A DNA stretch of 64,000 nucleotides from positions 19,646,889 to 19,710,888 of the forward strand of contig OZ024892.1 in assembly GCA_964017195.1 (NCBI GenBank). Direction: 5' to 3'. Positions 3,893-57,500 of this stretch are shown here, piece by piece; positions within the stretch are counted from its first letter, which is position 1; each line of letters begins with the position of its first letter. A model generated the notes under the pieces. It was not told the DNA's origin, searched no databases, and saw nothing but the letters and a program-made list of their open reading frames with translations. The translations under genes and the position numbers were made by a program. The DNA is from Siderastrea radians. Its lineage: Eukaryota; Cnidaria; Anthozoa; Scleractinia; Rhizangiidae.

Positions 3893-3933
3893 CTCAACAT
3901 CAATATTAGAAACATGATCCAGGCTGTTATTGT

Positions 3934-5130
3934 CTACTTTGACTTCCCTTGCTTTGTCTTCCTTTGGCTCGGAGGGTTTGTTTGCCGGTCGTTGTATCGA
4001 AAGCCTAAAAAAGGCCTCCGGGCCTGACGGTATCCTCGTCCACGGCTCGAAGAGTGTGGCATGTAGTTTCTAGAATTTCTAAAATCAAAATGAGACCTGG
4101 AGGATGACCCACTATGTGTTGTGACCTTTTTCCCAACACGATTGACTTCTGTCAAATCTTTAACCTGCTTTGGTAAATCATCCCCAAACAGTTGATCTGT
4201 GATGGCAAGGGATGAGGAACATAAATGTTTGTAGTCATTATGCAGGTTAGGCTTTATGAACTCTCTACGCCTGTGATTAAGCTCCGTATTAGCATTAGCA
4301 AACAGAGCAAAGGCATCAGTAGCCTCTTGAAGCAACTCGTTTCCAGCCGGAAACGTAGGTATTTGTTCCACAAGTTTATTGATCATACCAGTCAAGGCAC
4401 ACATACCTTTGAATAAAGACGTTTGCACTTTTTGCATCCGAACGTCTTCTGAGCGTACAGAGGGGCTCAAGTTATCCCACACTGCCTGATTTACACGTAC
4501 TTTTGTCAGGCTTTCGCAATTTTCAGGGCGATGATCTTTGTTCATCTTGTCCTGAAGTTTTTCCTCAGGCAGCCCGTCTTTTATCAGTGTATCAATAATG
4601 CTTGCCAGTTCGGTGTCCACTTTCGGACCCGTTTCCTCCTTCTGTAGATCTTGTTTTAAGCTACTCAGCACTTTAATTTTGCCTTCATTAGAAGTTGTAT
4701 TGGACCTGTCGAGCAACTGCCCGACAGACGCGTCCACATCCATGTTTTTCTGACTGTTGTCGTTCGCATCTTCGCGCTTCTTCTTCGCGGGGGGCTCGCC
4801 CTCGTGGTCTGAACCGAGGAGATCTTCCTCTTGTCCTTCGCCATATGAAATTTCTAGATCGTCCTTAAGCGACTTAAAAGCCTCTGTAATGGCATTAGCC
4901 AGAGTTCCAGACATTTGGGTAAGCCCTTCTTGAATGGCAGATAAAACGGCAGACGAAGAACCTTCGCCTTGTGGAGGAGACGCGCCAATTATGGCGCCAT
5001 TTTCCACGACGACATTAGCTTCGTTGTGTTCGGGCGTACCTTTTGCCCTTGAGCTATCGCTAGCTTTCCTTTTCTGCCCAGCTGTGTCCTTCTTTTGGAC
5101 GGAAGTATTACCTTTCTCGTTGTCAGGCAT
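3934..5130 (-). CDS. DIRS gag-like protein
   Basis: The open frame has 398 codons and is the first ORF of the DIRS element. The N-terminal third is acidic and lysine/serine-rich, with basic patches such as PPAKKKRED that could act as nuclear signals. The middle is predicted helical. The C-terminus is Arg/Ser/Gly-rich (SSSRGRGYRQARRP) and suits nucleic-acid binding. There is no CCHC zinc knuckle, as is common for DIRS gag. The ATG at 5130 follows a short leader that starts in the terminal inverted repeat. The role as capsid/RNA-binding protein is inferred from position; sequence identity to known gags cannot be judged here. Confidence 0.75.
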   Translation of the reverse strand: MPDNEKGNTSVQKKDTAGQKRKASDSSRAKGTPEHNEANVVVENGAIIGASPPQGEGSSSAVLSAIQEGLTQMSGTLANAITEAFKSLKDDLEISYGEGQEEDLLGSDHEGEPPAKKKREDANDNSQKNMDVDASVGQLLDRSNTTSNEGKIKVLSSLKQDLQKEETGPKVDTELASIIDTLIKDGLPEEKLQDKMNKDHRPENCESLTKVRVNQAVWDNLSPSVRSEDVRMQKVQTSLFKGMCALTGMINKLVEQIPTFPAGNELLQEATDAFALFANANTELNHRRREFIKPNLHNDYKHLCSSSLAITDQLFGDDLPKQVKDLTEVNRVGKKVTTHSGSSSRSHFDFRNSRNYMPHSSSRGRGYRQARRPFLGFRYNDRQTNPPSQRKTKQGKSK

Positions 5131-7093: not shown

Positions 7094-7915
7094 GTGTTTC
7101 AACAACCTGGTAGCGCACCTGCGAGTATGGCCACGAACACCCCGTTTCCAGAGTTCAAAACGACAGGAGATGATAAGTATGACATAGAAGTATTTATCGA
7201 AGATTTGACAGATTATTGTGTTATGCAAAATTGGTTCGATCCGTTGAAAGATACAGAAGCAGTGAAATGGACCAAGCCAGATAAAGCGATGGCATGTCTC
7301 CGGGCAGCATTATCCCCTGCGGCTAGAGCAGTGTACAAATACAGCTTGGGTCTTACCGAAGATGATCAGAAGAAGCCTCACATGGTTCTCAATGCTTTGA
7401 GAGAATATTACGGTGCGAGCATCGGAGTCTCTGGGGAACGACAAAAGCTCCTTCGCTTGTTACAAAACGAAAACGAATCAATCGCTTCCTGGGAGACGCG
7501 AGTACGCAATCAATCAGCACAGTGTGAATATGAAAAGTTCGCTGACGAGCTTACGAGAGACCAGTTCATCGCCGGTTTAACTTCTGAAACCCTTCGTGTG
7601 AAATTAATTGGGAAAGGACACAGACATAGAGACACCGCACAAACAAAGGTCACATTACGAGAAGTTGTTGAAGTTGCTAAAGCTTTTGAAGCGACTACAT
7701 TCGCGAATAAGTTAATGAAAACTGCCAGAAACACGCAGGAAGAGCAGGTCAATTTTACGAGTAAATCAACATCTGCAAGCCAAGGCTCGGGGTCAACACC
7801 GCCATTGTGTTACTGGTGCCGCGGCAGTCAGCAACAGCCCCACCAACAGCATTGCCCAGCGTTTGGCAAGAGATGTAACAGGTGCAGCATTACTGGTCTA
7901 AAAACTAAAAACTAA
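7094..7915 (+). CDS. Gypsy gag protein, C-terminus truncated
   Basis: The frame has 273 codons. The central part resembles retrotransposon capsid, with helices around YYGASIGVSGERQKLLRLLQ and a QFIAGL motif. A zinc-knuckle region begins CYWCRG and continues to KRCNRC. It ends abruptly in LKTKN and a stop, where a second knuckle would be expected, so a small deletion or frameshift near 7895-7915 has cut the C-terminus. The protein would form the particle and bind element RNA. Confidence 0.85.
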   Translation: MFQQPGSAPASMATNTPFPEFKTTGDDKYDIEVFIEDLTDYCVMQNWFDPLKDTEAVKWTKPDKAMACLRAALSPAARAVYKYSLGLTEDDQKKPHMVLNALREYYGASIGVSGERQKLLRLLQNENESIASWETRVRNQSAQCEYEKFADELTRDQFIAGLTSETLRVKLIGKGHRHRDTAQTKVTLREVVEVAKAFEATTFANKLMKTARNTQEEQVNFTSKSTSASQGSGSTPPLCYWCRGSQQQPHQQHCPAFGKRCNRCSITGLKTKN

Positions 7916-8348
7916 AGTTGTAAAAGCACAGATTGACTCGGCATCCACGTGTAACACTATGCCCAGCAGTTTGTTAAACGAGTTATTTCCCGACACACAG
8001 ATTTCGAAGACCAGAAGTAAAATCAACACTTATGGAAGCGAAACCATGCGTCCAAAAGGGCAGGTTACCCTCTGCTGTGATAGAAAAGGAAAGATACACA
8101 TGATAGATTTCCTTGTGGTCGACCTACGTTATAACAAGCCACCACTTCTCTGCGGGAAGGACACACAAGCATTGGATTATTTGAAGATCTACGCCGGCGA
8201 AACACACGCAGTTGAGGAAAAAACTCCACAAAATAATGCTTCCACCACTAGGAAAGTTGACAAAGGAGGACGTTTTAGAACACTACTCCAACGTATTCAA
8301 GCCAGGCCGCAGAAAACCTCTTGGAACCCCCATGCACATCTCTCTTGA
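7916..8348 (+). pseudogene. Gypsy aspartic protease, degraded
   Basis: The frame is open from about 7916 and contains the catalytic-like triplet D-S-A in AQIDSASTCNTM (canonical D-S/T-G). It continues with the typical VDLRYNKPPLLCG segment. It leaves the RT frame near 8230-8260, so protease and RT are out of phase by a small indel. It would process the polyprotein. Ala in place of Gly at the active site is common in such elements. Confidence 0.7.
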
Positions 8349-8940
8349 TCCCAGTATTTCTCCTGTACATGCTCCAATGCGCCGAGTTCCTGTTGCAAAG
8401 TTGGAAAGAGTAAACAAAGAGCTAAAGAGATTGTGCGATGAAGGCATCATAAGGTCGGTAACACAACCTACAGATTGGCTCTCCAACATTCTGGTGAAAG
8501 AAAAACCGAATGGCAAACTCCGTATATGCATTGACCCGAGCCAAACCATTAACAAGGCAATCAAAAGACCGAAGTACACAATACCAATGATCGAAGAGAA
8601 GCTTCCACTACTGACCAAGGCTAAAGTGTTCACTATTGTGGATGTGTCTGAGGCTTTCCATACCATAGTTTTGGATGACGAGTCGTCGGTACTCACAACG
8701 TTTCAGGGACCAAACGGGCGATATTGTTACAACCGCATGCCATTCGGGATAGCTTCGGGACCGGAGGAGTATCAGCGGCGGCAACATGAATTCTTAGACG
8801 GCCTTCGTGGGGTAATCAACATTGCTGATGACATCTGCGTATTTGGATGTGGAGACACAAAGGAGGAAGCAGATATCGATCACGACAGAAATCTGACAAA
8901 CTTGCTAGAGAAGTGCAGCAAATCTCTCTCTGCTAACCTT
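8212..8940 (+). pseudogene. Gypsy reverse transcriptase
   Basis: The RT palm and fingers are recognisable: RVPVAKLERVNKELKRL, then DWLSNILV, then FTIVDVSEAFHTI, YNRMPFGIASGPEEYQ and the catalytic box IADDICVFG (x-x-D-D). The frame is lost near 8935, where the thumb and connection continue in another frame from 8942. Without those frameshifts it would be a standard Ty3 RT. Confidence 0.88.
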
Positions 8941-8941
8941 C

Positions 8942-9658
8942 ATGGGACATAAACTAACCGACAATGGTGTAGAACCTGGTCCAGACAAAGTGGCTGCTAT
9001 CACAGGGATGCCAAAGCCAACTGACAAAGCAGGAGTGCAGCGTTTTCTCGGTATGTGCCAGTATCTAAGCAAGTTCTGTCACAACTTGTCCGAAACAGTC
9101 CTTCCACTCAGAGACTTGACGAAGGAGCACTCTGTATTTTTATGGTCAAACAATCATGAAAATGCATTTAACTCAGCAAAGGATCTCATTGCTTCGACAA
9201 CCGCCCTACGATACTACGATGCAACCCTTCCAGTAACACTTCAAGTAGACGCATCTGAAGACGCCATCGGTGGTGTATTACTACAAAATGACCAGCCTGT
9301 CTGTTTTACTTCGCATACGTTCAACAGCACGGAAAAGAACTACGCCCAGATCGAGAAGGAGTGCCTTGCTATTGTGTCTTGCATGGATAAGTGGTATCAG
9401 TACTTGTACCGCAAGCATGACATAATGGTCCACGCGGATCACCAGCCTTTAGAGACAATATTTAAGAAGCCACTCAGCAAAGCCCCTCGCAGGTTGCAAA
9501 GAATAATGCTAAAATTGCAGAAATATCAGTTCACAGTCCGGTACAAGAAGGGGAAAGAGCTGTACGTAGCGGACACTCTGTCGCACGCGGCCGCTCTCTC
9601 GCACGCGGCCGCGCAGCCGTCACGCACAACCGTCATGCACAACCGTCACCGATCCTGA
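8942..9658 (+). pseudogene. Gypsy RT connection and RNase H
   Basis: The frame begins in GHKLTDNGVEPGPDK and FLGMCQYLSKF, the usual RT-RNase H linker. It continues with LQVDASEDAIGGVL, NYAQIEKECLAIV and HADHQPLETIF, the RNase H core of Ty3 elements. It ends in a short Ala/His-rich duplication (SHAAALSHAAA) and a stop before the integrase. It would degrade RNA of the RNA-DNA hybrid. Confidence 0.88.
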
Positions 9659-9698
9659 CCACACCTTTTCTGGCAAGCAGGAATGTGAAGTCTTCCGA

Positions 9699-11035
9699 TT
9701 GGAATTGGAGGAAATGGATCTCACACCAAATCGGGTTACAGCCGACACACTAAAAAGGATAAGACAAGAAACCGCCAAAGATCCTGTCCTAACAGCTCTA
9801 CAAACAGTGGTAACGAGTGGTTGGCCCTCAGAAAGGAAGGAAGCACCAGAGGAACTCAGAGTTTACTGGAACTTCAGAGACGAGTTGTCAGTTTATGATG
9901 ATGTTCTCTACAAATCTCATCAAGTCATTGTCCCAGCTTCTCTACGACCTGAGATGCTACGAAAAATACATAAAGCGCACCAAGGGGCAGACAGTAGCAT
10001 AAGACGAGCACATGAGTCTCTTTTTTGGCCAGGAATGCAGGCAGCTATCAGAGAGACATGTTTATCGTGTGGAATTTGTTCCCAATACCTAAGCGAGCGA
10101 CCTCAAGAACCAATGAAATCTTATGAAATTCCCAACCGACCATGGTCGGAAATAACTATCTTGTTATGGTCGACCACTATAGCAACTTCTTTGAACTAGA
10201 CTCTCTCAGAAACACAACAGCAAGCACGGTCATTTGAGCCATGAAGAGGAACTTCGCTCGACACGGAATTCCAGACGAATGCATAACCGACAATGGCCCA
10301 CAGTTTGACAGCCACGAGTATTCAAACTTTGCTCGAGAATACGGATTTACTATGATTAAGTCGTCACCTTACTACAGCCGGGCAATCGGAAAAGCTGAAT
10401 CAGCGGTCAAGATTGCAAAGAATATTGTAAAGAAGTCCCGCCACGAGGATCCCTATCTAGCACTCTTAGCATATCGTAACACACCCCAACAGGGATACAG
10501 TTACTCACCAGCTCAACGGCTGATGTCCAGAAGACTTAATGACATCATACCTACTGCTCCAAGCCAACTTGTTCTGCAGGCAGCGTCGCCAAGTTTGGTA
10601 CATGAAAACATTGCAGATAGGAGACGAAAAGCAAAGGCCCAGTACGATAAGAGAACATCGGCGCCGCTTAAAGAGTTCTCAAAGGGAGAAAAGGTATATG
10701 TGAAGCCTAGGCCCACAAACAGGCAACAACCATGGATCTTTGGGGAGGTAATTGGAAAACCCACACCGAGGGCCTGCCTTGTGAACACACCAATGGGACC
10801 AGTCCGGCAAAACCACACACAAATAAGGGAGGCGAAGGTGGAACCACCTGACAGTTGTGACCGCTTTGAAACTGCATCTATACCCTCGGAAAGTGGACCA
10901 ACAGAACAAATGGATCAGTCAACACCCACGTCACCAATGGAATCAGAACGCGCGCCACTGGCAGAACCTACCGCGCCCCGACATTCAACAAGAGAACGCA
11001 GACTTCCTGCAAGGTTTAAAGACTATGTTATGTAA
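9699..11035 (+). pseudogene. Gypsy integrase with deleted first catalytic Asp
   Basis: The H2C2 zinc-binding domain is present (HKAHQG ... CLSCGICSQY). The second catalytic Asp is in CITDNGPQFDS and the Glu in IGKAESAVK. Between RPWSEI and the segment read as MVDHYSNFFELDSL the frame is broken, and roughly 20 residues that normally hold the first Asp are missing. A TGA at about 10237-10239 follows. A C-terminal domain and a Ser/Pro-rich tail continue to 11035. The enzyme cannot be catalytic as read. Read as one gene, there is one deletion plus one stop. Confidence 0.85.
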
Positions 11036-18520: not shown

Positions 18521-21500
18521 AACAGGGGTCTATCTAGTTTTGCAGTACGATTTTTCACGATTATTTATCGGCAAATGCGTTCTTTGTCCCTAATAATCGT
18601 GAAAAGAGGTACTTTGTAGTTATTAATCGCGAAACGCGTGAATTGCGATTAATAATCGTGCATCTTACAGTTAATAATCGTAAACCCCACGATTATTAAC
18701 TACGTCTGACAGATTCTACAGTTAATAATCGTACATTGCGCGATTATTAATCGCAAGTGACGGTCAATGTAGTTATTAATCGCAAGTTGCTGACCTTGGG
18801 CGAAAAGACCATTGAAAAACAAATTTGACTTTACCAGCCGCCATTGCGAAAGAAAATTCAAACCCAAGCAGAACTCTTCACGGGGCTTGTTGTAAAATAA
18901 AAACAACGAAAGTTGGTTCTTGAAGTGACAAAGTCTCCTCGCGTATTTAGTTTTACTTCGGTAAGTCGTTTAGAAATGGTATTTTCCTTTTCTTTCTCTC
19001 TTCGACGAAGCACGACATGAGCAAGATCGAAGAAGTCATGGATAAGAACAGCGCGTGACAGATGCATGCAGAGTGAGTGATTTAAAATTGTCAACTTCCA
19101 AACGACACTGAACTCTTCAATATCTCCAATAAAGGAAATGAAAATAACTATTTCATCAATCGAAAGTTCAATTCATTTTTCACTCGAATATTTTTTTCGA
19201 TATGACATTTTTTTAATGCGAACAATCACACGAACAAAACCATCGCGATCCGATGCAAAGCGAGCGATACAAAGAAAAATGATTAACCCTCATGAAACGG
19301 CACTCCTTCAACCGCCTAAACACACAAGGAAATCAGATAACCATTATACAAAAGATAAATTTATTTGCTTGGACATTTCAACAACTTGACTTTGTTTGTT
19401 TTTCTTTTCCTGCCAACAATCTGGCAACCATAATTTCAAACGCCGTAAAGCTGAAAGCCGTGCCTGAAATTCACAAATTGATCACGACGTAAACAAACCA
19501 TTATAATAAGAAAACGCGTCGGAAATTTCGCAGTGGAAAGGAGTTTTATTAATCACTTTTGAATCCTTACATATTCTGATTAAACATAAAATAATTTTCC
19601 AGCGTAAACATTTCCATTCACGAGCGGAAAAACCGAAAGCCACAAAAAGGTCCAAGGGTTATTAACTACGCTTGTACTTAAGCTTATATAGCTGCAGTGG
19701 TTGCATTTTCAGGTTATGAAAAGTATTTTCAGGTTAGCAATGCAATAATTGTATAATAGCTTCGTTCTCCTTCTTTAAGTGACCGTTCACATAACCACAA
19801 CGGAAAAGAACACAACGGAAAAGAACTCTATTTATAGCCCTCCGGTATTCCTTTCGCCGCGAGTTGAAATTGAAATATGAGAACATGCCGTCTAATGATG
19901 TGATATGCAAATTTCATTGAGAATATTCGCTTAATACGTTTCGCTTTGTGTTTGCAAAAAGCTGGTTTGGTGGAAGAGTGTTAAACTGTCTCCAAGAGAA
20001 ACGTTTTATAGCATGAACTCCAATCCAAAGGTACATGTAGTCGACGGGAACTCTGGAGTTCATAGCAGTGTCACACAACAGGCGAGGATTAGTCTCAGCC
20101 GCTACTGATCTGGTGAGGCTTCAGGAACTGAAAAGAAAGCTTACGTTTTCAAATTTTTCTTCGTAAATATTCCACCGAGCGAAACTGTTTCATGGATGTT
20201 CTTTTCAACCACGCACAATATTCAGCGTTCCGTTTTTCGTCTTACGTTTCGAAGCCAATGTCAGCTCTCTTGTCGTTCGTACATCTTACAGTTAATAATC
20301 GTAAACCCCACGAATATTAACTACGTTTGACAGATTCTACAGTTAATAATCGTACATTGCGCGATTATTAATCGCCAGTGACGGTAAATGTAGTTATTAA
20401 TCGCGAGTTGCTGACCGTGGGCAAAAAGAGAATTGAAAAACCAAAATGACTTGACCCGCCGCCACCACGAGAAACAGAACTCTTCATGAGGCTTGTTGTA
20501 AAATAAAAACAACGAAAGTTGGTTCTTAAAGTCACAAAGTCTCCTCGCGTGTTTAGTGTTATTTCGGTAAGTTGTTTACACTTAATGGTGGTATTTTCCT
20601 TTTCTTTCTCTCTTCGGCGAAGGACGACACGAGCGTGATCTCAGAAGCCATGGATAAGAAAGCGCGATTGATGCAAAGTGGGGGATTAAATTGGCAACCT
20701 GAAAACGAAACTGAGCTCTTCAAGTCCTTCAATACAGGAAAGGAAAATAACTACTTCAGCATTCGAAAGTTCGACTCATTTTCACTCGAATATTTATTCT
20801 TCTGTTTCGTGGGTTTATTGTTCAAACACGCACTCGTCGAAGCAAATGAACTGCAAACGAGTCAAATTTATTTCGTCAAAAATGGCGAAAAGTTTTTTTC
20901 GTTCTTAAATAAAACTATACAAACTAACAAAACGTTTTAAACTATCTGTTTTAAGCGGCTAAGACATCGAGAACTCATGCATCATAATTTAAGTCATAAC
21001 TTTTCAACCACTCTATTCTCCGAGTCAGTGGCGCCAAATTTCGTTTTGCGCGGGAAAAATCAGAACATGGAAAGGCAAGCAAGCTGTATCAAAACGGACA
21101 ACGCAATGGATTGTTTACAAGCATTACAATCCATTAACCTGGTAATCAGACTAATCCCGCTTATCATAAGGAAAATAGGCTTACCTCTGTTTTTGGCGCC
21201 GTTTGCCCGTGTAAACCTACCACACATTTCGGGCCATGTCCAGTACGCAAAACACTCTTCTTAACAAGTCCGGTCCTTTAAATTCATTCTTCAATTGTCA
21301 CCAGTGATTTAAATAGCTGTTCAATGAGTTCATTTGACGTATGTTTTCCAAGCCTCCACTTCTTCCATGTTGCAGAGAACAGTCCTTGACACTCTTTCTG
21401 TCTTTGCAAATAGTTCCCGCCGATGGATTCATTTCAGTTTCTATCGATTTCAAGTTGGCCTTTGTCAGAAAAAATTCTTCGTTCGAGTCCAAAACATTCA

Positions 21501-22071
21501 AACGAGAAGTCCGACACATGGAGCATTTTACTGCCCTATTCTTTAAACTGTGTCCTGTAAACAGTTGACTTGCCACAGAGATTTCAACAGCAGTGCACGA
21601 AAGCACGTTGAGTCAGGAGATGTTTATACTGAAGTGAACCGGCAGTTCTTTGATCGCATTGAATTCAAGCTGCCGTATTAAACTTTCCCTTTCAAGACAG
21701 TCTCATTGGAAATTTAAAATTTCACTAAGCCTTAGGCTTGGTTAATTTCTACCGGCTTAATTACGAGCAAAATAAGCAGCCTGATTCTCCAAAGTTCAAT
21801 GCTTCGAATGTCCACTTTGACAGATCAAGGTAGCTGTCAAAATGTGACCAATCACAGCGCTAGCTGTTTAGCTAGCTGTCAAAGTTGTATTCCAAGGCAA
21901 AAAGAACCCATTTAAGTGTTGTCCAAGTCGCTCGGGTCACGAAAAGAAGTTCGAAAAAGGATGCGTCCGCCAGTCAGTGAGTTGACTGGACAACACGCGC
22001 GCGGAACAAGTGTGTGTATGTGTGTCTGGTGCGAATTCCAATGGACCGTAAATAATTCATTGTATTGTTTC
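18521..22071 (+). repeat. Left arm of the foldback element
   Basis: This arm is the reverse complement of 22921-26474. It contains an internal direct repeat: 18660-18990 resembles 20280-20600, so each arm seems built from at least two related units. Short ORFs here (for example 20572-20940) are mirrored in the other arm, but no known domain is seen. Confidence 0.85.
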
Positions 22072-22920
22072 CGCTAGCGGATTTGGACCCCCTTCGCGGA
22101 TTTGGACCCCCTATGTAATTGTAAAAACCCACGCTGTTATTCGCATATAAAGTACCGAAATAATTTCACTTTTCAATCTTGGCGAAGAAACGTTTCGTTT
22201 GGGTTTCAAAATACTGCAAACCTATTCATAATAGAGGTAGAGTCAGACTTTAGATCAAGTAAATTGACCGTTGGTTTTAGGCACATAGCCAGACCTCTAA
22301 ACGTTGCAGTTAAAGCATGCGCTGCGGTATTTCTTACAGAAGATACGATTTTAAAATCTTATTTTTTTTCTTTTACTCCCGTTGTTAATATTTATTCTAA
22401 CAAACTTAATTTGAGGTGAGGAAAAGGTGAGAAAAAAGCTAATTTTTAAAGTACGCTTGCTACTCCGCCCCTCCAATTACCGCGGCAAGTTGATGTCAAA
22501 TACCATTGTTTTCTTAGCGCGACTTTATAAATTCGCTTTAAGTCAGTTATGGTAGAAAATATTGTAAGATATCTTCATGAAAGTTTAGTTTTTAAAATTT
22601 ATCGATACAAACTAGCGTTGTAGGTTCTCTTTTACCCTAAGTATTAAGGATTATTTGAAAAGAAAAACTGATTCAGTATTTTTATTTTGCGTTTTTAACA
22701 GCTCCAAAAAACAATTTTACTCAATAGAACGCTTGTTTTCAAGGGGGTCCAAATCCGCGAGAGGGGGTCCATATCCGCTAGTGATAGCATACATTGAAGC
22801 AAGAGAAACATCTTAGTTTAGAACGTTTAGACAGTATAGTTTATATTAGCCAAGTTAGGACAAAATTTGGTGGTTGCACTGTCGTGCAACGAGATAGTCT
22901 AACAAACCGCTATGTAGTCC
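22072..22920. repeat. Spacer of the palindrome, containing a nested element
   Basis: Most of the spacer is a nested insertion bounded by GCGGATTTGGACCCCC ends. What remains (22072-22074 and 22781-22920) is the original loop of about 140 bp and has no gene. Confidence 0.7.
22077..22778. mobile_element. Nested MITE with doubled end motifs
   Basis: Both ends carry two direct copies of a GCGGATTTGGACCCCC-type motif, in inverted orientation to each other (22077-22112 and about 22742-22778). TA at 22075-22076 and 22779-22780 would fit a TA target duplication. The interior is AT-rich with one unsupported ORF. It interrupts only the spacer, so it entered after or during formation of the palindrome. 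Confidence 0.65.
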
Positions 22921-25900
22921 GAAACAATACAATGAATTATTTACGGTCCATTGGAATTCGCACCAGACACATACACACACTTGTTCCGCGCGCGTGTTGT
23001 CCAGTCAACTCACTGACTGGCGGACGCATCCTTTTTCGAACTTCTTTTCGTGACCCGAGCGACTTGGACAACACTTAAATGGGTTCTTTTTGCCTTGGAA
23101 TACAACTTTGACAGCTAGCTAAACAGCTAGCGCTGTGATTGGTCACATTTTGACAGCTACCTTGATCTGTCAAAGTGGACATTCGAAGCATTGAACTTTG
23201 GAGAATCAGGCTGCTTATTTTGCTCGTAATTAAGCCGGTAGAAATTAACCAAGCCTAAGGCTTAGTGAAATTTTAAATTTCCAATGAGACTGTCTTGAAA
23301 GGGAAAGTTTAATACGGCAGCTTGAATTCAATGCGATCAAAGAACTGCCGGTTCACTTCAGTATAAACATCTCCTGACTCAACGTGCTTTCGTGCACTGC
23401 TGTTGAAATCTCTGTGGCAAGTCAACTGTTTACAGGACACAGTTTAAAGAATAGGGCAGTAAAATGCTCCATGTGTCGGACTTCTCGTTTGAATGTTTTG
23501 GACTCGAACGAAGAATTTTTTCTGACAAAGGCCAACTTGAAATCGATAGAAACTGAAATGAATCCATCGGCGGGAACTATTTGCAAAGACAGAAAGAGTG
23601 TCAAGGACTGTTCTCTGCAACATGGAAGAAGTGGAGGCTTGGAAAACATACGTCAAATGAACTCATTGAACAGCTATTTAAATCACTGGTGACAATTGAA
23701 GAATGAATTTAAAGGACCGGACTTGTTAAGAAGAGTGTTTTGCGTACTGGACATGGCCCGAAATGTGTGGTAGGTTTACACGGGCAAACGGCGCCAAAAA
23801 CAGAGGTAAGCCTATTTTCCTTATGATAAGCGGGATTAGTCTGATTACCAGGTTAATGGATTGTAATGCTTGTAAACAATCCATTGCGTTGTCCGTTTTG
23901 ATACAGCTTGCTTGCCTTTCCATGTTCTGATTTTTCCCGCGCAAAACGAAATTTGGCGCCACTGACTCGGAGAATAGAGTGGTTGAAAAGTTATGACTTA
24001 AATTATGATGCATGAGTTCTCGATGTCTTAGCCGCTTAAAACAGATAGTTTAAAACGTTTTGTTAGTTTGTATAGTTTTATTTAAGAACGAAAAAAACTT
24101 TTCGCCATTTTTGACGAAATAAATTTGACTCGTTTGCAGTTCATTTGCTTCGACGAGTGCGTGTTTGAACAATAAACCCACGAAACAGAAGAATAAATAT
24201 TCGAGTGAAAATGAGTCGAACTTTCGAATGCTGAAGTAGTTATTTTCCTTTCCTGTATTGAAGGACTTGAAGAGCTCAGTTTCGTTTTTAGGTTGCCAAT
24301 TTAATCCCCCACTTTGCATCAATCGCGCTTTCTTATCCATGGCTTCTGAGATCACGCTCGTGTCGTCCTTCGCCGAAGAGAGAAAGAAAAGGAAAATACC
24401 ACCATTAAGTGTAAACAACTTACCGAAATAACACTAAACACGCGAGGAGACTTTGTCACTTTAAGAACCAACTTTCGTTGTTTTTATTTTACAACAAGCC
24501 TCATGAAGAGTTCTGTTTCTCGTGGTGGCGGCGGGTCAAGTCATTTTGGTTTTTCAATTCTCTTTTTGCCCACGGTCGGCAACTCGCGATTAATAACTAC
24601 ATTTACCGTCACTGGCGATTAATAATCGCGCAATGTACGATTATTAACTGTAGAATCTGTCAAACGTAGTTAATATTCGTGGGGTTTACGATTATTAACT
24701 GTAAGATGTACGAACGACAAGAGAGCTGACATTGGCTTCGAAACGTAAGACGAAAAACGGAACGCTGAATATTGTGCGTGGTTGAAAAGAACATCCATGA
24801 AACAGTTTCGCTCGGTGGAATATTTACGAAGAAAAATTTGAAAACGTAAGCTTTCTTTTCAGTTCCTGAAGCCTCACCAGATCAGTAGCGGCTGAGACTA
24901 ATCCTCGCCTGTTGTGTGACACTGCTATGAACTCCAGAGTTCCCGTCGACTACATGTACCTTTGGATTGGAGTTCATGCTATAAAACGTTTCTCTTGGAG
25001 ACAGTTTAACACTCTTCCACCAAACCAGCTTTTTGCAAACACAAAGCGAAACGTATTAAGCGAATATTCTCAATGAAATTTGCATATCACATCATTAGAC
25101 GGCATGTTCTCATATTTCAATTTCAACTCGCGGCGAAAGGAATACCGAAGGGCTATAAATAGAGTTCTTTTCCGTTGTGTTCTTTTCCGTTGTGGTTATG
25201 TGAACGGTCACTTAAAGAAGGAGAACGAAGCTATTATACAATTATTGCATTGCTAACCTGAAAATACTTTTCATAACCTGAAAATGCAACCACTGCAGCT
25301 ATATAAGCTTAAGTACAAGCGTAGTTAATAACCCTTGGACCTTTTTGTGGCTTTCGGTTTTTCCGCTCGTGAATGGAAATGTTTACGCTGGAAAATTATT
25401 TTATGTTTAATCAGAATATGTAAGGATTCAAAAGTGATTAATAAAACTCCTTTCCACTGCGAAATTTCCGACGCGTTTTCTTATTATAATGGTTTGTTTA
25501 CGTCGTGATCAATTTGTGAATTTCAGGCACGGCTTTCAGCTTTACGGCGTTTGAAATTATGGTTGCCAGATTGTTGGCATGAAAAGAAAAACAAACAAAG
25601 TCAAGTTGTTGAAATGTCCAAGCAAATAAATTTATCTTTTGTATAATGGTTATCTGATTTCCTTGTGTGTTTAGGCGGTTGAAGGAGTGCCGTTTCATGA
25701 GGGTTAATCATTTTTCTTTGTATCGCTCGCTTTGCATCGGATCGCGATGGTTTTGTTCGTGTGATTGTTCGCATTAAAAAAATGTCATATCGAAAAAAAT
25801 ATTCGAGTGAAAAATGAATTGAACTTTCGATTGATGAAATAGTTATTTTCATTTCCTTTATTGGAGATATTGAAGAGTTCAGTGTCGTTTGGAAATCACT

Positions 25901-26474
25901 CACTCTGCATGCATCTGTCACGCGCTGTTCTTATCCATGACTTCTTCGATCTTGCTCATGTCGTGCTTCGTCGAAGAGAGAAAGAAAAGGAAAATACCAT
26001 TTCTAAACGACTTACCGAAGTAAAACTAAATACGCGAGGAGACTTTGTCACTTCAAGAACCAACTTTCGTTGTTTTTATTTTACAACAAGCCCCGTGAAG
26101 AGTTCTGCTTGGGTTTGAATTTTCTTTCGCAATGGCGGCTGGTAAAGTCAAATTTGTTTTTCAATGGTCTTTTCGCCCAAGGTCAGCAACTTGCGATTAA
26201 TAACTACATTGACCGTCACTTGCGATTAATAATCGCGCAATGTACGATTATTAACTGTAGAATCTGTCAGACGTAGTTAATAATCGTGGGGTTTACGATT
26301 ATTAACTGTAAGATGCACGATTATTAATCGCAATTCACGCGTTTCGCGATTAATAACTACAAAGTACCTCTTTTCACGATTATTAGGGACAAAGAACGCA
26401 TTTGCCGATAAATAATCGTGAAAAATCGTACTGCAAAAATTAAAAAACACTGCAAAACTAGATAGACCCCTGTT
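22921..26474 (-). repeat. Right arm of the foldback element
   Basis: This arm mirrors 18521-22071. Changes seen by translation are limited to single residues in the mirrored ORFs at 24050-24418, 24478-24669 and 25498-25698. Confidence 0.85.
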
Positions 26475-26826: not shown

Positions 26827-26967
26827 CTACAAGTAACACAGAACAGACAGTAATTACACAATAATGTTGAAGTGAACAATACTGGTAGACACCTTGTTTG
26901 GGTGACAGCTACAATCATGAGAGGAGTAACTGCAGAATACCTCACCACTTTCTAAATATATCTCTGA

Positions 26968-27645
26968 ACTGGATACGCGGATACGCGGATACGCAGTGAT
27001 GAAGTCATCTTCCTCTTCTTATTATATTTCTGATATGGATACGCGGATACGCGGATACGTAGTGAGGAAGTCTTGTGTCTTTTCTAAGTGTATTTCTGAA
27101 CTGGATACGCGGATACGGAGTGTAGAGGTCGTGTTTCTTATTGAAGTGTATCTCTGAAATGGATACGCGGATACGCAGTGACGAAGTCATCCTCCTCTTC
27201 TAATTATATTTCTGATATGGATACGCGGATACGCGGATACGTAGTGAGGAAGTCTTGTTTCTTTTCTAAGTGTATTTCTGAACTGGATACGCGGATACGC
27301 GGATACGCGGATACGCGGATACGCAGTGAGCAAGTCTTGTTTCTTTTCTAAGTGTATTTCTGAACTGGATATGCGGATACGCGGATACGCAGTGAGCAAG
27401 TCGTGTTTCTTCTCTAAGTGTATTTCTGAACTGGATACGCGGATACGCGGATACGCAGTAAGGAAGTCGTCTTTTTCTGAGTGTATCTCTGAACTGGATA
27501 TCCGGATACGCAGTGCGAAAAAAAACGTTTGTTTCTAAGTTTATCTCTGAGTGGATACACAGATACGAGGATACGCAGTGAGGACGTCGTGTTTTTTCTC
27601 TGAGCTATATACGCGGATACGCGGATACGCGGATACGTGGATACG
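26968..27645 (+). repeat. Left GGATACGC-based tandem array of the Merlin element
   Basis: About nine units of roughly 60-80 bp each hold a variable number of the octamer GGATACGC, followed by a spacer such as AGTGAGGAAGTCTTGTTTCT and TATTTCTGAACT. The octamer number varies from about two to five per unit, as expected for slippage. The array faces an inverted counterpart at 32189-32444. It may serve as transposase-binding sites or as a replication signal (inference). Confidence 0.85.
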
Positions 27646-27716
27646 TTGATAAGATGTCAACCCTTGTTTAGCCTAGTCGAGATGGTTGGAATATCTTTCA
27701 CCTTAGTCGTAACATA

Positions 27717-27890
27717 AACCGTAACATAAACCCTAACCCTAACCCGAACCCGAACCCTAACCCTAACCCTAACCCTAACCCGAACCCTAACCCTAACCCT
27801 AACCTAACCTAACCTAACCCTAACCTAACCTAATCCTAAACTAACCCTAACCTAACCTAACTCCCCTAACACTAACCCGAGTATCCGCCG
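27717..27890. repeat. Degenerate telomere-like (CCCTAA)n array inside the Merlin element
   Basis: Runs of CCCTAA with CCCGAA and CCTAA variants follow the GGATACGC array. The repeat is the TTAGGG-type motif of animal telomeres, reading C-rich on the plus strand. It lies well inside the transposon, not at a chromosome end. It may have been captured during repair or may function in the element. Confidence 0.85.
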
Positions 27891-28253
27891 AACCCTAAGC
27901 TTAACATAAACCTGACCCTAGCCACCTTACGACTAGTCTGATGATAAAACTTGTCTTATATAAAAGTTGATTATAACAATGCAATAATTTGATGTCAAAA
28001 CAAGCATCTTATTACAAAGATGTACAGTTTTATTGTTATCACATAGATAAGTAAAAATGCGAATAGGTAGTTCATGAAAGAAGTGAAATAAATAATACAA
28101 TCTGTGATCAATAATCATTTGTATGCGCAATCAGTGTCCAGTACTCATAAGTCCATAAATGCAATAATTGTTTACGTCTTTTGTTGAAGCATCGACTATT
28201 TATTCATTGCGTTCAAACATGTCTTCTGGAACGTAGCTATTTGCAATTAATTC

Positions 28254-30150
28254 TCACTTAATTGCAGTTGTGATACTGCAGTGTGCCGACAAATTGTATC
28301 TCTGTCGATACTCTGACTGTGAACATAGATCGCATGGCCAGTTGATTTTGTCTGGATTTTCCTTAACAAATGCAGTGACAAGATTAGGTGTACGTGGCAC
28401 TCTAATTCTATAAGTGTTCCCCATGCCAGCTATTTCCAATAATGAAATGGCTTCTTGGAATTCGGCATCCGCAATGCCCCCCATACTTCTGGTTGCACTT
28501 TGTTTGAAGGCATGGAATGTCAGCACAGGACCCGGAAAAAGGATGCATGCTGCCTTCACTGACGACATGCTTGGTTGCGGCTTTTCATCGTCAAGAGTTG
28601 GTACAATCAATTCTGACAGAAACTGTTTAAAAAGAATTAAAACACACCCGGATGAAATCTAAAATATAAGATATAAATACACACTCAGTGGCTGCCTTAA
28701 ATAAAAGATCAATAATCAACATACCTCGACAAATATCTCTTTTTATGATTCTGCCCACGTCACATATACACAATAAATTGTGTTAGTTAAAGTATATTTT
28801 TATATAATGACCTACACAACCGGATGAAATCTAAAATATAAGATATAAATACACACTCAGTGGCTGCCTTAAACAAAAGATCAATAATCGAGTAGTCCAG
28901 TACCTCTTGTGAACCTATAATTTCAGAGGCATTCTAAAACAATATTGCTCATTGTCTTCAGGGATAGGTGCATTGTTTGCGCCCTTATCTTATTGTTCTT
29001 ATGGCCAATCATGTGAGATGTTCAATGAGGTGCTGGTCGACTCCAATAATCAACATACCTCGACAAATATCTCTTTTTGTGATTCTGCCCGCGTCACATA
29101 TTTCTGTGCCTTCTCCACTGTTGTCTTTTCAATGTTGTTGGCAGGCGTGTTTGGTTCGTTACTGCTAAGTAGGTCTTGAGTAACAGAATCCAAGATGTGA
29201 ATGGCAACTGCAACACGTAAAATGATTTCTACTTTCTTTGTTTTCGGTGGTGGCAGTCCTTCTGTTATTGTGGTGTTAACCTCCGAAATAAACTCCTCGT
29301 TTATGAGATTTAGTGGTTCTAAGGCATCATCTGTCAAGGTGTAGGTTGATCTTCTGGAGTGGAGTCTAGCAATTTCGATAAAAATATCATCGCAGCTGGC
29401 AATTGGACATGTTTTTAGAATTTCCAAAGCGTCTATGGTTTGTTGTGGGGTTGGTCTTAAACATTTTGGAAATGTAATTAAAAATAAACCATGTCTCTGA
29501 TCTAGTGTGGTGATTAGTCGAGCTGCCAATGGAACTTGGGTTGATCCAAGGATACAGAAGGGAGTATTCTCTGGTATTTCTCTTGTATTTTCTGTTGCGT
29601 ATCGGTAAGATGTCTTTTCCCCGGAGAAAAGCTGACACATGATTTGGACATCTCCGGTAGCATTTTCTTCATCTGATCTCAAAAGTTTAAAGATAACATC
29701 GTATATTTCCGCAGATAATAAAAATGCTTTTTCGTTCTGTGAGATTGTCTTTACAAGTCCTGCGGATGTGCATTTGTTGAGAACGATGTTGTTCAGATCG
29801 ATTTCTCTACAAACAGCAGACATAGGGGATGCCGCACATTCCTTAAGTGCCTGTGATTTTCCCGTCGTTGGAGGTCCAACAAACATAGACAAAAGGTTGA
29901 GAGGCATTTCGTGAGATCCATAAATTACAGTAGTTTCCATTCCGGCAACGAAAGCTGTGGTTGCAATGAGACTTGTTCCAACATATCCCGCATTAGTGCT
30001 CAGTGAGTTTGCTTTTCTTTGTATGAACTCCCATACTTGAGGTTGAAATATGTGTTCGAAGGGATCTGGAAGGGCTATCAAACGTTTCTGTAGAAGTGCC
30101 CATGTACTATCCGGTTGTTTTCGAAGTTTTGTTAATCTTGAATTAGACAT
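28254..30150 (-). CDS. DUF3987-like P-loop ATPase, two exons
   Basis: Exon 1 is 30150-29059 and exon 2 is 28622-28254, with donor GTATGT and acceptor AAACAG. They join in frame to a 486-residue protein. Residues 92-99 form a Walker A motif (GPPTTGKS) after MPLNLLSMFV. Later motifs include LLSAEIYDV, LFSGEKTSYRYATE and ILGSTQVPLAARL, which I recognise from DUF3987 proteins. That family has primase/helicase-associated members in phages and plasmids. The C-terminal exon contains a winged-helix-like segment around EAISLLEIAGMG and ends in a Cys-bearing region. The gene is divergent from the transposase, with about 420 bp between starts, so a shared promoter is likely. A minus-strand AATAAA lies at 28199-28204. 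The role in transposition or replication is inference. Confidence 0.78.
28623..29058 (-). other. Intron of the DUF3987-like gene with internal duplications
   Basis: The 436-bp intron contains a near copy (28709-28766) of the end of exon 1 and its donor (29044-29101), and a second direct repeat (about 28648-28718 and 28820-28890). A decoy donor therefore lies inside the intron. Confidence 0.7.
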
Positions 30151-30571
30151 TTTCTACCGTTGTGCCTGTCAGGGCTTTTCCTCAGTAAGAAATGCATGCG
30201 TCTATATTACACGTGATTCAAACAATTGAAAATACTAACGTTCTTGGCACGCACAGATAAGCAAGGTTGACGAATAAAGTGCACGAATGATGCGCGTGAA
30301 TGAAGGCAAATGAATGATTATAAAGGGAGGACATCAATAGATGAAGTAATGAAGAGATAGATCCAGCTGTAGATCATACCAGAATAACTTTAGAAGCTAA
30401 CTTTATGCAAATGAAATCAGAACTCGCTGACTACAAACTGATAACGGTTAGCATGCTATTGATCGTATAATGTAGCGCATGAAGAATTTGTCCGACTTGC
30501 GCGAACAATTTTACCATCCGAACTTCCATGTATTAAAAACGATTATGATGTAATTGTGATTTGGCTTTAGT
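30151..30571. promoter_or_regulatory. Divergent promoter region of the Merlin element
   Basis: About 420 bp separate the two divergent coding starts. AT-rich segments are present, but no motif can be called with confidence. Its place between the only two genes of the element is the evidence. Confidence 0.4.
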
Positions 30572-31663
30572 GTGGATAGCGTAAAAGCAAAGATCCAAAG
30601 TGCGGAACTCAGTATTCTATTGCAAAAAAGGTATTTTTTAAAAATGTATAGAGTCAAGGGGACAAGAAAAATCGGCATTCAAGTGGGATGTTCATCTGGA
30701 GATTTAAAAGGAAAAGGTGTTCAGTGTTCGTACTCTAAGAGCAGTTCTAGAAAAGAGGACAGGGAAAGCCGTTTCACAACATTTGAGGACCTTTTGCGTA
30801 ATTATTTGTGAGATAAGGAGTACATGCTATCCTGGTTGAAAGAAGAGGGTTTGATTGCGTCGATGCGTCGATGCGGTGTTTGCCAATCCGAGATGAAATG
30901 GACGGAGTGCAATGACCAGTCTGATGGATTTGTATGTAGGAAGCAGATTGGCCTCAAACGGCACAGATGTCAAACCAGTATCAGGGAAGGTAGCTGGTTC
31001 GAAAATGCAAATTTGACAATTGAAGAAGTGCTAAAGTTTACCTATTGGTGGTGCCAAGATCTCTCTCAATGGCAAATAAAACAGCAGCTTGGTCTTGGAT
31101 CACATACAGCAGTAGACTGGGATATGTTCTGCCGAGAACTTTGTGAGGTAGCCTTGTTTAAAACAAGAGAAATGATCGGAGGACCCGGCAAGGTGGTGCA
31201 AATAGACGAAAGCAAAATTGGGAAACGAAAGTATCATCGTGGACATGTAGTAGAAGGGCAATGGGTCTTTGGGGGAATTGAAGAAGATTCAAGGAAATGC
31301 TTCATTGCAACCGTTGAGAATAGAACAGAGGAAACATTATTAGAACTAATAAAGGAATGGATTGCACCGGGCACGATAAAAGTGTCAGATTGCTGGAAAG
31401 CGTACAATAACTTAGAGAAACATGGCTATATCCATAAAACGGTAAACCACTCCAGAGAATTTGTTAACGAAGAGGGGTATGACACAAATAAAATTGAAGG
31501 TCACTGGCGACAACTGAAAGTGAAATTGCCCACCCATGGACGAAAAAAAGAACATTATTCATCCTACCTAGCTGAATTCAAGTGGCGTTACATTCATCGT
31601 GGCGAAGATTTGTGGAAAACATTCTTGTCAGACATTAAGAGAGTGTATAAATGTAACTAAAAA
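30572..31663 (+). CDS. Merlin (IS1595/ISXO2-like) transposase, one in-frame TGA near the N-terminus
   Basis: Codons 30572-30811 and 30824-31663 are in one frame, separated by a TGA after FTTFEDLLRNYL. The downstream ATG at 30824 alone gives 278 residues: a zinc ribbon (C17, C20, C38, C49), then a DDE core with D128 in VVQIDESKIG, D189 in KVSDCWKAY and E225 in NKIEGHWRQLK. These are the ISXO2-like motifs of Merlin transposases. The segment before the TGA matches the style of Merlin N-termini, so the stop looks like a mutation. The core domains still remain open. An AATAAA lies downstream at about 31741. The enzyme would cut at the element's GG-starting termini and leave 8-9 bp duplications. 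Confidence 0.88.
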
Positions 31664-31765
31664 AGGTATTAACTTAATATTTATTTTCGTGAAGTGTATC
31701 AAAATTCTGTTTTATGATGCAGGAATTTTTTTGAACGGGTAATAAAACGTGCAAAACAACTTGAT

Positions 31766-31876
31766 TAAACTTACTAAATTTTGGAATTATTGTTTTCCTG
31801 CTCTACGTTGTTTCGAGGTTTGAACTTACTAAATTTTGGAATTACTGTTTTCCTGCTCTACGTTGTTTCGAGGTTT
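31766..31876. repeat. Short tandem duplication downstream of the transposase
   Basis: A unit of about 57 bp beginning AACTTACTAAATTTTGGAAT occurs twice in a row with one or two changes. Confidence 0.75.
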
Positions 31877-32049
31877 TTTGTTGCCTTGGTCATTCTTTCT
31901 ATTACTTCACTGGTGAATTTCGCAAGACAAATGATGTTTTAAGTCAAGATCTCAAAAGGAATGAGCCAATGCGGCGATGCGCCTCGCTAGCAGTGCTTTT
32001 CGGTTTAATATAACGGGATAAATCGTGCAATCGACAGCCCAAAGGAATG

Positions 32050-32200
32050 TTACCTTTACGCTTTAAAAGTCAATTACCGCGTAGCCACTAGTTTTATGAA
32101 TATTGATCACCTCGTATCCAAGAATCTGCTAATGACGCCTTACGCTTTAAAAGTCAGTTCACCGCGTTGCCGCGAAGCCACTAGTTTGATGAATACTTTT
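32050..32200. repeat. Degenerate direct repeat before the right array
   Basis: The motif TTACGCTTTAAAAGTCA recurs about 90-100 bp apart, followed both times by a CCACTAGTTT motif. It leads into the GCGTATCC array. Confidence 0.55.
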
Positions 32201-32444
32201 CACCGGGTATCCGCATAGCCACTAGTTTACTGCGTAGCCACGTATCCGCGTATCCAGTTCCTAAAGGTCATATCCTCGTATCCGCGTATCCAGTTCTTAT
32301 CTTTGATATCCACGTATCAGCGTATCCAGTTCCTATCGGACATATCCTCGTATCCGCGTATCCAGTTCTTATCGGTGATATCCTCGTATCCAGTTCCTAT
32401 CGGACATATCCTCGTATCCGCGTATCCGCGTATCCGCGTATCCA
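32189..32444 (-). repeat. Right GCGTATCC-based array of the Merlin element
   Basis: Octamers GCGTATCC alternate with spacers such as AGTTCCTATCGGACATATCC. It is the inverse of the GGATACGC array at 26968-27645, so the two arrays form long subterminal inverted repeats of variable length. Confidence 0.85.
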
Positions 32445-32985
32445 GCCAATTTAAGGAATAGCTTCAAAGTGGCAGGGTATTCTGCAGTTAAGCCTCATGA
32501 GAATGGTGTAAAACTTTTCTTTACAGTCGGGAACAAAATCAGCAAGACACAATCACATAACACTTATTTTTGTGTATATAAATAAGGCTGCAGAAGCTTC
32601 CAGAATTTTCAGGAGGGGTGGAGATGGGTGGAGAATAGGCATATTATTATTCAATCCTCACTCTCATGCATTTGACTGTCAAATTTATGAATTTATAAGA
32701 AATACCTACTTGTAAGGGAAATGAATGACCTAAACTGCAAGGATTTGACTGAAAAGTTGGGCCCCAGGATGTATGTAGCACTAAAACAAAATTGTTCACA
32801 AATTAAAGTCATCTGTACATATTGATAGTATAATCAACATTTGTAAACATTATATTCAAAGTGATGCACAATACGAGCTTTTCCGGTCTGATGTCAGTCA
32901 CAGAGTTACAGTGCGCTAGATTATCTGTACTGCAACCACAACTTCAACTGTTTCATAAAACAGGGTTTTTTTCTTGGAAACTTAC

Positions 32986-54551: not shown

Positions 54552-57500
54552 TTATTCGTCTTCATCTTCCTGGTCATCATCTGAGAAAGCATCGTCGGCT
54601 GCATCCTCCTCTCGTCGGTTTGTACAGTCCTGCAACCGGCATAAATCCGTGCACTTAAGGCCATTGGTAAGGCAGGTACAGCCTGGTAGCTTGCAGATTC
54701 TCGAACACTGACAAGATAGCAACTCCAGAACGGCTTGGGGAGCTGGTTCACCACTCATCCAATCAATGGTAAGTTTGCCGTCCTCCAGACACCAGCCAGA
54801 CCCAACAGGTGAAGGTACTTGAGGGCAGCTCTGCAGACTTCTTTTCCAGATCGCTGCTTGGTAGTTTGCCCGAAGTGAGTGCTTTCGCAGACAATCAGCA
54901 GAGGGTGGAAGTTGGTTCGAGTCAAGTTTGCCTTTCTTTGCACAGAAGAGCCGATAGCGTAGTTCATTCACATCATTGGTTCCTGGATTTGAACTGTAAA
55001 GCTTACACGTGAATTCCTGAAGCCTTTCGAACAACTCACTGGAGACCTCCCACTGCATACCAAGCTGCTTGAAAAGGTCTTGGAAAGATTTGTGTCGCTT
55101 AATGAGTTTTAACGCGGTTATCTTCCCCTTTCCAGCAAACGCACTAACGCTGTCACACCCTGTATAAGCATGCAAACCAATAAGACATTTGCATACCTCT
55201 GGTCCATGCAGCTGAACCGCCATAGAGATGTCTATGTATCTTGTTCGGGTCTGTGTGCCACATTTCATGTATAATGATGCTGGAATAAAGCTCTTAAAAG
55301 TTAGGCAGAGCACGAAGACATCTGTATCTTCTGACGATATCAAGATCGTCTTATAACCAGACCTTGCAGCATCGGCAGCGTGCAATAGTATTCTTGTGTC
55401 GGCCTCTTCTTGCGTTGATCGGAGATCTTCCCTTGTAATGACACTTCCTTGGGAGACTTGGTAGCATTGGTCTTCAGTCGTGACAAAAAGTGTCTTTCCG
55501 GAAAGTTTAGCTACATATCTGTCTTTCTGCCACTGCTCTGCAATAAATGCAATGAAATGCTTCTTGTTCGTGGGGTTTGACAAAAATGTTCGCCATTGCA
55601 GCAGTTTATGTTCTGGTCGGATATTACGGAATTCATTTCCGGTCTGATCAGAACTTCTCTTTTCTCTCTCTGCGTTTTTAATGGAGTTCTCTAAGTACAC
55701 GTCAAACACAACATCGATCCGGTTACTGTTAGCTCCCTCATGCAAGGCCATACTTATCAGTGAATCAGCAACTTCTGAAAACGTCTTTTGATCTCCTTTC
55801 AGCCTCTGAACTAGTGCCATTCCATCAATGATACATGCCGATGGTTGTGGAATGATTTCCGCTGCTGGCACATCCTTCTGTAGCTCTTTTGCAAGGGAAC
55901 TCTTTGAGGTTTTCTTGAGGGAACCATCCGCAGAAGCCAACGCCCAGGGTAGCGGCCCAAGCGGGTGAGACAGCACCTCCTTCATCTTCAGTTGTCTGGT
56001 CTCTGCAATAATAATCATCTGAGCAAATAGTGCTCGGTCAGCCTTGAGGATAACTTCCTTAGCAGTTCCGCGGCTAACTTTCATTTTCTTGTTTAGATCA
56101 CTGAACGTCTTAAGCTGTAATTTAGTCATTTTTTCATGAAACTTCACCTTCGTTGGCTCTGACTCTAGCCTTTGCTCTCTAAATGTTCTGTAGGCCTGTT
56201 CTCCAATTTCTTTAGCCTTCAGAAGGTCGTGCTCGATTTCAGGGGTGGCGACTTTGCCGGTGGATAAACAAACAAGGTCTTGCTGTTCACTCTGGTATGG
56301 ACTGATCCAGATTTCGAAGGTTGATAGCAAGGATTTAACATCTCCTTCGTCCCTTGTGATCCTGCTCTGTTGAAGGTCGTTGTGCGAAGAGCTCGAGCTG
56401 TTCAGGTGGAGGATGTCTTTCAACTGCCTCATAAATATGCTTCGATACTCAGCTGTTAAGTAATACTTGCTTACGGGTCTGGGCTTTAGACTAAACCCCT
56501 TGGTCCCCCCTGGCGTCTGCGTGTCTTTGTTTACCGTTTCTTCGCAAGTCTGGTCGACTGGTATTCTGCCGAAGGTGTTAACCTCGCCAATCTGAACTGC
56601 GAATCCGCCAGATTTGAAATACTCCAATATATTTGGGTGGTCGTCCTCCAGGTGAGACATTTCTGAAACGTACGCAGACAGGTATCTCGCGTAATTGAGG
56701 TTGTCATAGGCGAAACACCAGGGTATCATTTGTCTAATACAAGACAAATGAAGTTCCCAGTTCCCTTCCCTGGTTGCTCTCAACAGGCCCAAAAGAATTT
56801 CTACAATGTCAATGTACGACATCCAGAATGCAGAAAGCTTGCCATTTTCATGTCGAAGACAGTCCATGTACTCCTCAAAAAGTTGGAAAACCTCTGTGGA
56901 TGACGGACTGGACAGTTTCTCTTGGAAAACTTCTTCACAGACATTGTCATACAGCGTTTGAAGATCACCAAAGAAGTTGTCAACCATGGTCTTCTTATGT
57001 GCGCGATTCTCTCCGATCCACGTCTGAAATCCCGACCAAATTAATCTCATGAGAGCTTCATACATGAGCTTATGGAATCTCACGGCACGATTATATCTAT
57101 GGCCATCCAAAACCCCAGAAACAGATCCCTCTGCAATCACACCTGTCTCTACACAAATGTCCCTCAACCCGGCATCCTGAAATCTCTTTCCTATGATTCC
57201 TAGCATAGTGCAAATGGTGTGGAACACTCCCATCCTTAAAATCAAGGTGCTGAACTTCTCCTTATGCTTCCATTTGATTTCTGTGGCTTTTGCATACAAC
57301 GCCTGGTCAAAAACGACTACTATGCTCTGAAGTTTAAGACTGTTCTTTATCTTTAGTGACTGGTTCAGGACTTTGTAGACGGTTGACAAATCAGTGGCAG
57401 GCGCGTCGATAGTTGGTAGATATCCTATGCTGTCTTTGGAGACTTCCACCTCACTGCGTACAGCAATGTTAAACCCGGTCCAACCGCTGACTTTCTGCTT

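Follow-up and report, generated by a model that had tools for sequence, protein, structure and literature searches.

At positions 26923–32494 of the window (the whole stretch of 64,000 nt analyzed here, C6:19646889–19710888 in an 805 Mb assembly of the host, Siderastrea radians) lies a DNA transposon of the Merlin/IS1595 type, with GG termini and two divergent genes, one for a transposase and the other for an ATPase of the DUF3987 family, and it is almost certainly one broken copy of a two-gene Merlin lineage. Both of its genes are broken, and open copies exist elsewhere in the genome. The initial annotation had proposed a Merlin lineage with an acquired replication-type ATPase, and this is supported by the recurrence of the gene pair in the host genome and in L001, a related contig from outside the assembly (see below); its further suggestion, that the ATPase may enable replicative transposition or repair-linked copying, is conjectural.

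The termini of the element, GGAGTAACTGCAGAATACC and GGCTTAACTGCAGAATACC, are identical at 17 of 19 positions and are flanked by an exact 8-bp target-site duplication, TCATGAGA; the inverted-repeat arms reach 31 nt with 84% identity, of which only the 19-bp core is near-perfect. A terminus search of 6.6 kb from position 26400 (GG...CC, at least 13 of 20 positions matching, exact duplications of 8–9 bp) returned the 26923/32494 ends as the sole pair around the genes, bearing out the matching GG-starting termini and the 8-bp duplication of the first description. Subterminal tandem arrays of the GGATACGC type occur inside both ends in mirror orientation; these had been overlooked, as had a telomere-like (CCCTAA)n array within the element that has counterparts in a similar position in the copies on C1 and C3. 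Since the mirror-image arrays lie inside both ends and outside both genes, we argue that the two genes form one unit.

Recurrence of the gene pair in the host genome

Searches of the host assembly yielded 130 matches to the transposase, in 107 places, and 56 matches to ATPase exon 1, in 41 places, when matches within 3 kb on one strand were merged. A Merlin transposase is found within 10 kb of 23 of the 41 ATPase places, against some 0.11 expected under uniform placement, and 22 of the 23 paired places, window included, show the two genes head-to-head. In a second complete element of 4,575 bp (C2:73445064–73449638, duplication ACATGTTC), the transposase frame and the two ATPase exons run uninterrupted as far as their stops, and there are two deletion derivatives with ATPase remnants: C10:26276994–26280394 (duplication GAATTCGT) and C1:60662227–60664844 (duplication AAAAGCCA), the latter counted among the ATPase places without transposase. 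The expectation that other copies would carry both genes between related termini was thus borne out by the 22 head-to-head places, the C2 element and L001. Subterminal arrays with family-specific units are present in the window, C1, C2, C3, C5, C8 and L001 copies.

Flanks were read for 30 transposase loci (29 distinct places) of the 130 matches and for 30 ATPase loci of the 56 matches. Twelve of the 29 transposase places adjoin a head-to-head ATPase start and three more have ATPase remnants; the remaining ones show no ATPase within 1.5 kb, and several transposases there are truncated. When only near-complete transposases are considered (230 or more of 278 residues), an ATPase match lies head-to-head and no more than 10 kb away for 11 of the 12 with at least 53% identity and for none of the four with 38–41% identity (Fisher p = 0.0027, a value obtained after the fact because the length and identity limits were set by hand on the match table). 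One of the 11 paired transposases (C5:38079158) has an ATPase match of 30 residues only; C2:43800491, whose ATPase match lies at a distance of 5.5 kb and runs in the same direction, was scored as lacking the ATPase, and distant ATPases may escape the window query. A gene model with a foreign N-terminus, P0022, was dropped from the later query set.

That two unrelated elements happened to nest at this site is extremely improbable: two very distant DUF3987 genes do exist on C7 away from any Merlin transposase, but the gene pair recurs in 22 head-to-head places of one genome, in a second complete element and in L001, which contradicts chance nesting, and the array repeats flank both genes jointly. 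An origin of the ATPase in bacterial contamination was also rejected, because the copies are on large host contigs and the relatives end at the same intron position.

Genes found apart

No transposase occurs within 10 kb of 18 ATPase places, and the flanks of 10 of them were read. One is the C1 deletion derivative, with Merlin ends, another (L063) has a stretch resembling a Merlin terminus, a third belongs to the C7 gene described below, and the others are mostly short or interrupted. No ends of their own were found around the lone ATPases at nine loci by a search requiring six identical first bases, which was insensitive and missed the true ends of the window element as well. An open and distant DUF3987 gene (L069, C7:5875186–5876292), with 21% identity to that from the window and matching PF13148 with E = 3e-35, has a second match at C7:3693965–3694813; no Merlin transposase was found in the 8 kb read around the first of these genes, and the C7 pair is not linked to Merlin. 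The first C7 gene adjoins a frame with a cysteine-rich stretch.

Conversely, the 2,203-bp Merlin L028, with the duplication AAATGCTC, contains no ATPase. In the transposase tree, two ATPase-free rows are placed across a long, fully supported branch, and the transposases from echinoderms and octocorals group among the ATPase carriers. C315, also without ATPase, is nested among the carriers, and it has therefore probably lost or deleted its ATPase.

Joint evolution of transposase and ATPase

Transposase and ATPase identities are correlated over 15 units (Mantel test, r = 0.80, p = 0.0001; L004, with 29 ATPase columns, was left out) and also over 11 units, with one unit per close family (r = 0.41, p = 0.013). 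Two cases are clearly discordant: the transposase of L015 (C220:34004–37570) is 80% identical to that of the C2 element and its ATPase only 41%, and the C2 element is nearer to L001 by its ATPase and nearer to the window by its transposase. These suggest an exchange of ATPases between related elements.

Comparison of the C2 and L001 ATPases gave nonsynonymous and synonymous rates (dN and dS) of 0.112 and 2.83, respectively; for the transposases of the same pair dS was saturated, and the differences clustered at third positions. In comparisons between the window, C1 and C3 copies, dN and dS of the ATPase were nearly equal (0.013/0.016, 0.024/0.028 and 0.017/0.020). Judging from these substitution patterns, the ATPase is under selection along the moving lineage and undergoes near-neutral decay after landing.

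The transposase gene and assignment to Merlin

The window transposase matches PF12762 (DDE_Tnp_IS1595) with E = 1.3e-22 and scores above the cut-off of the NCBIfam IS1595 model, and 12 of 12 relatives match PF12762 too; the D, D and E residues (D190, D251 and E287 in L001 numbering) are conserved across relatives and present in the window, in agreement with the ISXO2-like transposase originally recognized. By comparison with relatives the gene is broken, with an in-frame TGA close to the start of the frame (Table 1). The zinc ribbon, initially described as complete, is supported only in part: its Cys/Cys/Cys/His positions are mostly conserved in the aligned transposases, but two residues beside the third Cys are missing from the window protein, and the match to the Pfam zinc-ribbon model is weak, being below the cut-off in the window and limited to four of the 12 relatives (best E = 0.014). 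Pfam showed no Zn_Tnp_IS1595 match in the window transposase or in the 12 relatives, as expected of Merlin.

The element agrees with Merlin in the IS1595 domain with its D-D-E set, the GG termini, the 8-bp duplication (seen in the window, C2, C10 and C1 elements) and the size of the inverted repeats, since the 31-nt arms fit the range of 24–462 bp that PMC8101967 gives for Merlin. According to the same source, the transposase is usually the only gene in the IS1595 family; the ATPase gene departs from this, and we treated it as a variant and not as grounds for exclusion.

The ATPase gene and its predicted fold

The ATPase matches PF13148 (DUF3987) with E = 3.5e-11 and 43.4 bits, over a curated cut-off of 27. 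Its gene model consists of two exons on the minus strand, separated by a GT-AG intron, and encodes 487 residues, so that the divergent two-exon DUF3987 gene with a Walker A holds, with one residue more than the 486 stated at first. The intronless relatives P0049 and P0057 align across both exons. Compared with its relatives, the window protein lacks three residues of a near-invariant stretch, which we take to be the arginine-finger region of an MCM-like motor, and its C-terminus is about 16 residues shorter than in L001 and C2. The intron holds a 154-bp insertion (28890–29043) whose ends are inverted (GAGT...ACTC) and which shows an 8-bp duplication, CAATAATC; this insertion is absent from a nearby duplicate of the intron.

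The protein is predicted to consist of an AAA+ motor with an MCM-like fold in the models, followed by a winged helix, as in the replication helicases of phages and plasmids. The closest solved folds to the models, among the matches listed, are MCM motors; in profile comparisons helicase and primase families came nearest, with matches to phage models. The ATPases had no match to the MCM sequence family in the Pfam scans, and a sequence search of the PDB returned nothing significant. MCM helicases have an N-terminal tier before the motor; this was not found in the models, where the aligned motor begins after no more than some 33 residues.

Relatives outside the host assembly

L001 (DDLT01000139.1; 4,876 bp) is binned as Lentisphaeria. 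It contains an open transposase of 340 residues and, in head-to-head orientation to this, both ATPase exons; its repeat array shares the GTATCC-type motif, and one end shows the terminus GGAGTAACTGCAGAATACC, with the second end beyond the contig. Its ATPase exons are 68% and 66% identical to those of the window, and its transposase is 72% identical. Because of the intron and a 98.7% match to P0008, we judge L001 to be animal DNA despite its filing in a Lentisphaeria metagenome-assembled genome. A second Merlin-type terminus sequence, perhaps a nested remnant, is found within its ATPase intron (L001:3279–3297).

The named relatives of the ATPase are from Stylophora, Montipora, Actinia, Desmophyllum, Porites, Paramuricea and Actinostola, presumably all Anthozoa, in keeping with a coral or close kin as the probable host; most matches are nameless. 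Scans of viral_contigs with the transposase and with A2 revealed no relatives, and L002 was discarded as a weak match in what appeared by eye to be a response regulator. Comparison of 163 ATPase entries with 117 transposase entries disclosed two exactly shared contig sizes (1000656 and 301463), which is suggestive only; the transposase entries are the best 120 of 1058 matches (117 with a length) and the second ATPase list comprises the best 120 of 169.

Layout of the element and neighboring features

Table 1. Features of the Merlin-type element and its flanks, in window coordinates
Feature	Position	Strand	Remarks
Left target-site duplication	26915–26922	.	TCATGAGA
Left terminal inverted repeat	26923–26951	+	Core 26923–26941
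Left subterminal tandem arrays	26950–27645	+	Unit GGATACGC
Telomere-like (CCCTAA)n array	27729–27877	-	Similar arrays in C1 and C3 copies
ATPase exon 2	28254–28622	-	Winged helix in models of relatives
ATPase intron	28623–29055	-	GT-AG; internal duplication and nested 154-bp inverted-repeat insertion
ATPase exon 1	29056–30150	-	DUF3987 AAA+ motor, Walker A
Spacer between divergent genes	30151–30643	.	
IS1595/Merlin transposase frame	30644–31660	+	In-frame TGA 30809–30811; open from 30824
Right subterminal arrays	32238–32445	-	GCGTATCC, mirroring the left arrays
Right terminal inverted repeat	32466–32494	-	Core 32476–32494
Right target-site duplication	32495–32502	.	TCATGAGA

A perfect inverted repeat at 18538–26438, whose arms (2,928 and 546 nt) are 100% identical and which has 943 nt in the middle, stops about 480 bp short of the Merlin element; either it arose very recently or it is an artefact of the assembly. 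Further away, frames at 1028–5130, 7094–11035 and 54552–58580 look, by eye, like retroelements of the DIRS and Gypsy types and like a protein of 1,342 residues whose tail is rich in cysteine.

Possible roles of the ATPase

We propose, tentatively and with a confidence that falls somewhat short of even, that the ATPase is the element's own replication initiator, acting as a ring helicase. The transposase would excise the element and insert it with 8-bp duplications, while the ATPase would form a ring helicase, use its winged helix to bind the element, with the subterminal repeats as the likeliest site, and open the DNA, admitting host polymerases; in this way an excised or transposing copy could be duplicated and not merely moved. 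The repeats of the arrays would be the natural candidate binding sites for such a helicase. In its boldest form, the idea is that these Merlins are animal transposon-replicons, which pair a cut-and-paste transposase with a self-encoded MCM-like initiator firing at iteron-like repeats inside the ends and which amplify themselves, perhaps while excised, with host polymerases; this is possible, though on the whole we regard it as doubtful.

Several observations count against an initiator. The TM-scores to MCM chains are modest, at most 0.39 of the query among the matches listed; the Walker B motif reads S-x-E, the usual form being D-E; and the winged helix is a reading of secondary structure in the models, that part having not been searched alone. 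ATP hydrolysis, unwinding and repeat binding are functions that are only predicted, at which the modeled fold, the winged-helix-like end and the repeat arrays hint. Neither a primase nor a polymerase was seen in the element, the arrays are at both ends in the window copy only (C2 has them at one end), and their units vary by family. Finally, clean duplications are found with deletion derivatives whose ATPase is truncated, from which it follows that the moving copy itself need not encode the ATPase.

MuB, TnsC and IstB are ATPases that assist transposase assembly or target choice, and the protein could be a helper of this kind, acting on assembly at the ends or on the choice of target, with no copying. 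The stable head-to-head pairing, the co-divergence of the two genes and the arrays just inside the ends would also fit an assembly role, but the folds and profiles closest to the ATPase are those of MCM motors, helicases and primases, and MuB, TnsC and IstB were unmatched among the fold matches listed, which does not exclude them; we consider a helper unlikely. The helicase-like fold of the models is also consistent with a repair-linked helicase that would favor, once the element has been excised, its being copied back from the sister chromatid into the donor site, and Kolobok lineages with accessory RecQ helicases offer a precedent (PMC9587614). This role seems improbable to us, since the phage relatives are replication proteins and nothing points to repair in particular. 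Still more doubtful is a neutral or host-related cargo with no role in movement. The four near-complete distant Merlins and the compact L028 do without the ATPase, C315 apparently lost it and L015 suggests that ATPases are exchangeable, yet selection acts between distant lineages and the pairing recurs in divergent families.

Comparison with known systems

Merlin elements, the eukaryotic relatives of IS1016 in the IS1595 family, share with the window lineage the IS1595-type DDE transposase, the GG termini and the 8-bp duplications (PMC8101967), whereas the window lineage adds a second, spliced DUF3987 gene. The same source mentions one Merlin family with an extra opposite open reading frame, devoid of any domain and judged to be a chance frame. 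PMC9587614 describes Kolobok elements, with a RecQ helicase in KolobokH and a His-Me nuclease in KolobokP, that are likewise eukaryotic DDE lineages defined by an accessory enzyme. However, they belong to another superfamily, and their RecQ is fused downstream of the transposase domain, unlike the DUF3987/MCM-like motor found here. An accessory helicase in a DDE transposon is thus already known, and it is the combination of Merlin with DUF3987 that is new: no Merlin with a DUF3987/MCM-like helicase was found in the open-access literature searched, a scope that does not extend to Repbase.

The DUF3987 AAA+ domain is shared with helicases of phages, whose models match, and of plasmids, and with PrimQH/all3500 primases. 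According to PMC5862659, the P-loop ATPase of PrimQH proteins is followed by a winged helix, and DUF3987 ATPases are predicted to be helicases for the replication of mobile elements. In contrast to these, the ATPase gene described here comes without a primase, is spliced and resides on an animal DNA transposon. An MCM-like helicase on an excising element is also found in staphylococcal cassette chromosome (SCC) elements, with Cch, and in Staphylococcus aureus pathogenicity islands (SaPI), with Rep; these are bacterial genomic islands and not terminal-inverted-repeat transposons. According to PMC7581432, SCC cassettes are thought to replicate after excision, which has not been shown in vivo, and SaPI Rep recognizes iterons by its C-terminal domain.

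Merlin-type elements have been described as transposase-only, and a lineage in which a replication-type helicase has been maintained by selection suggests that a simple cut-and-paste element can acquire a copying step of its own, something that SCC cassettes and phage satellites likewise appear to have done. The lineage further places in an animal a DUF3987 ATPase of a kind mostly familiar from phages and plasmids, and the open copies in the genome make the idea testable.

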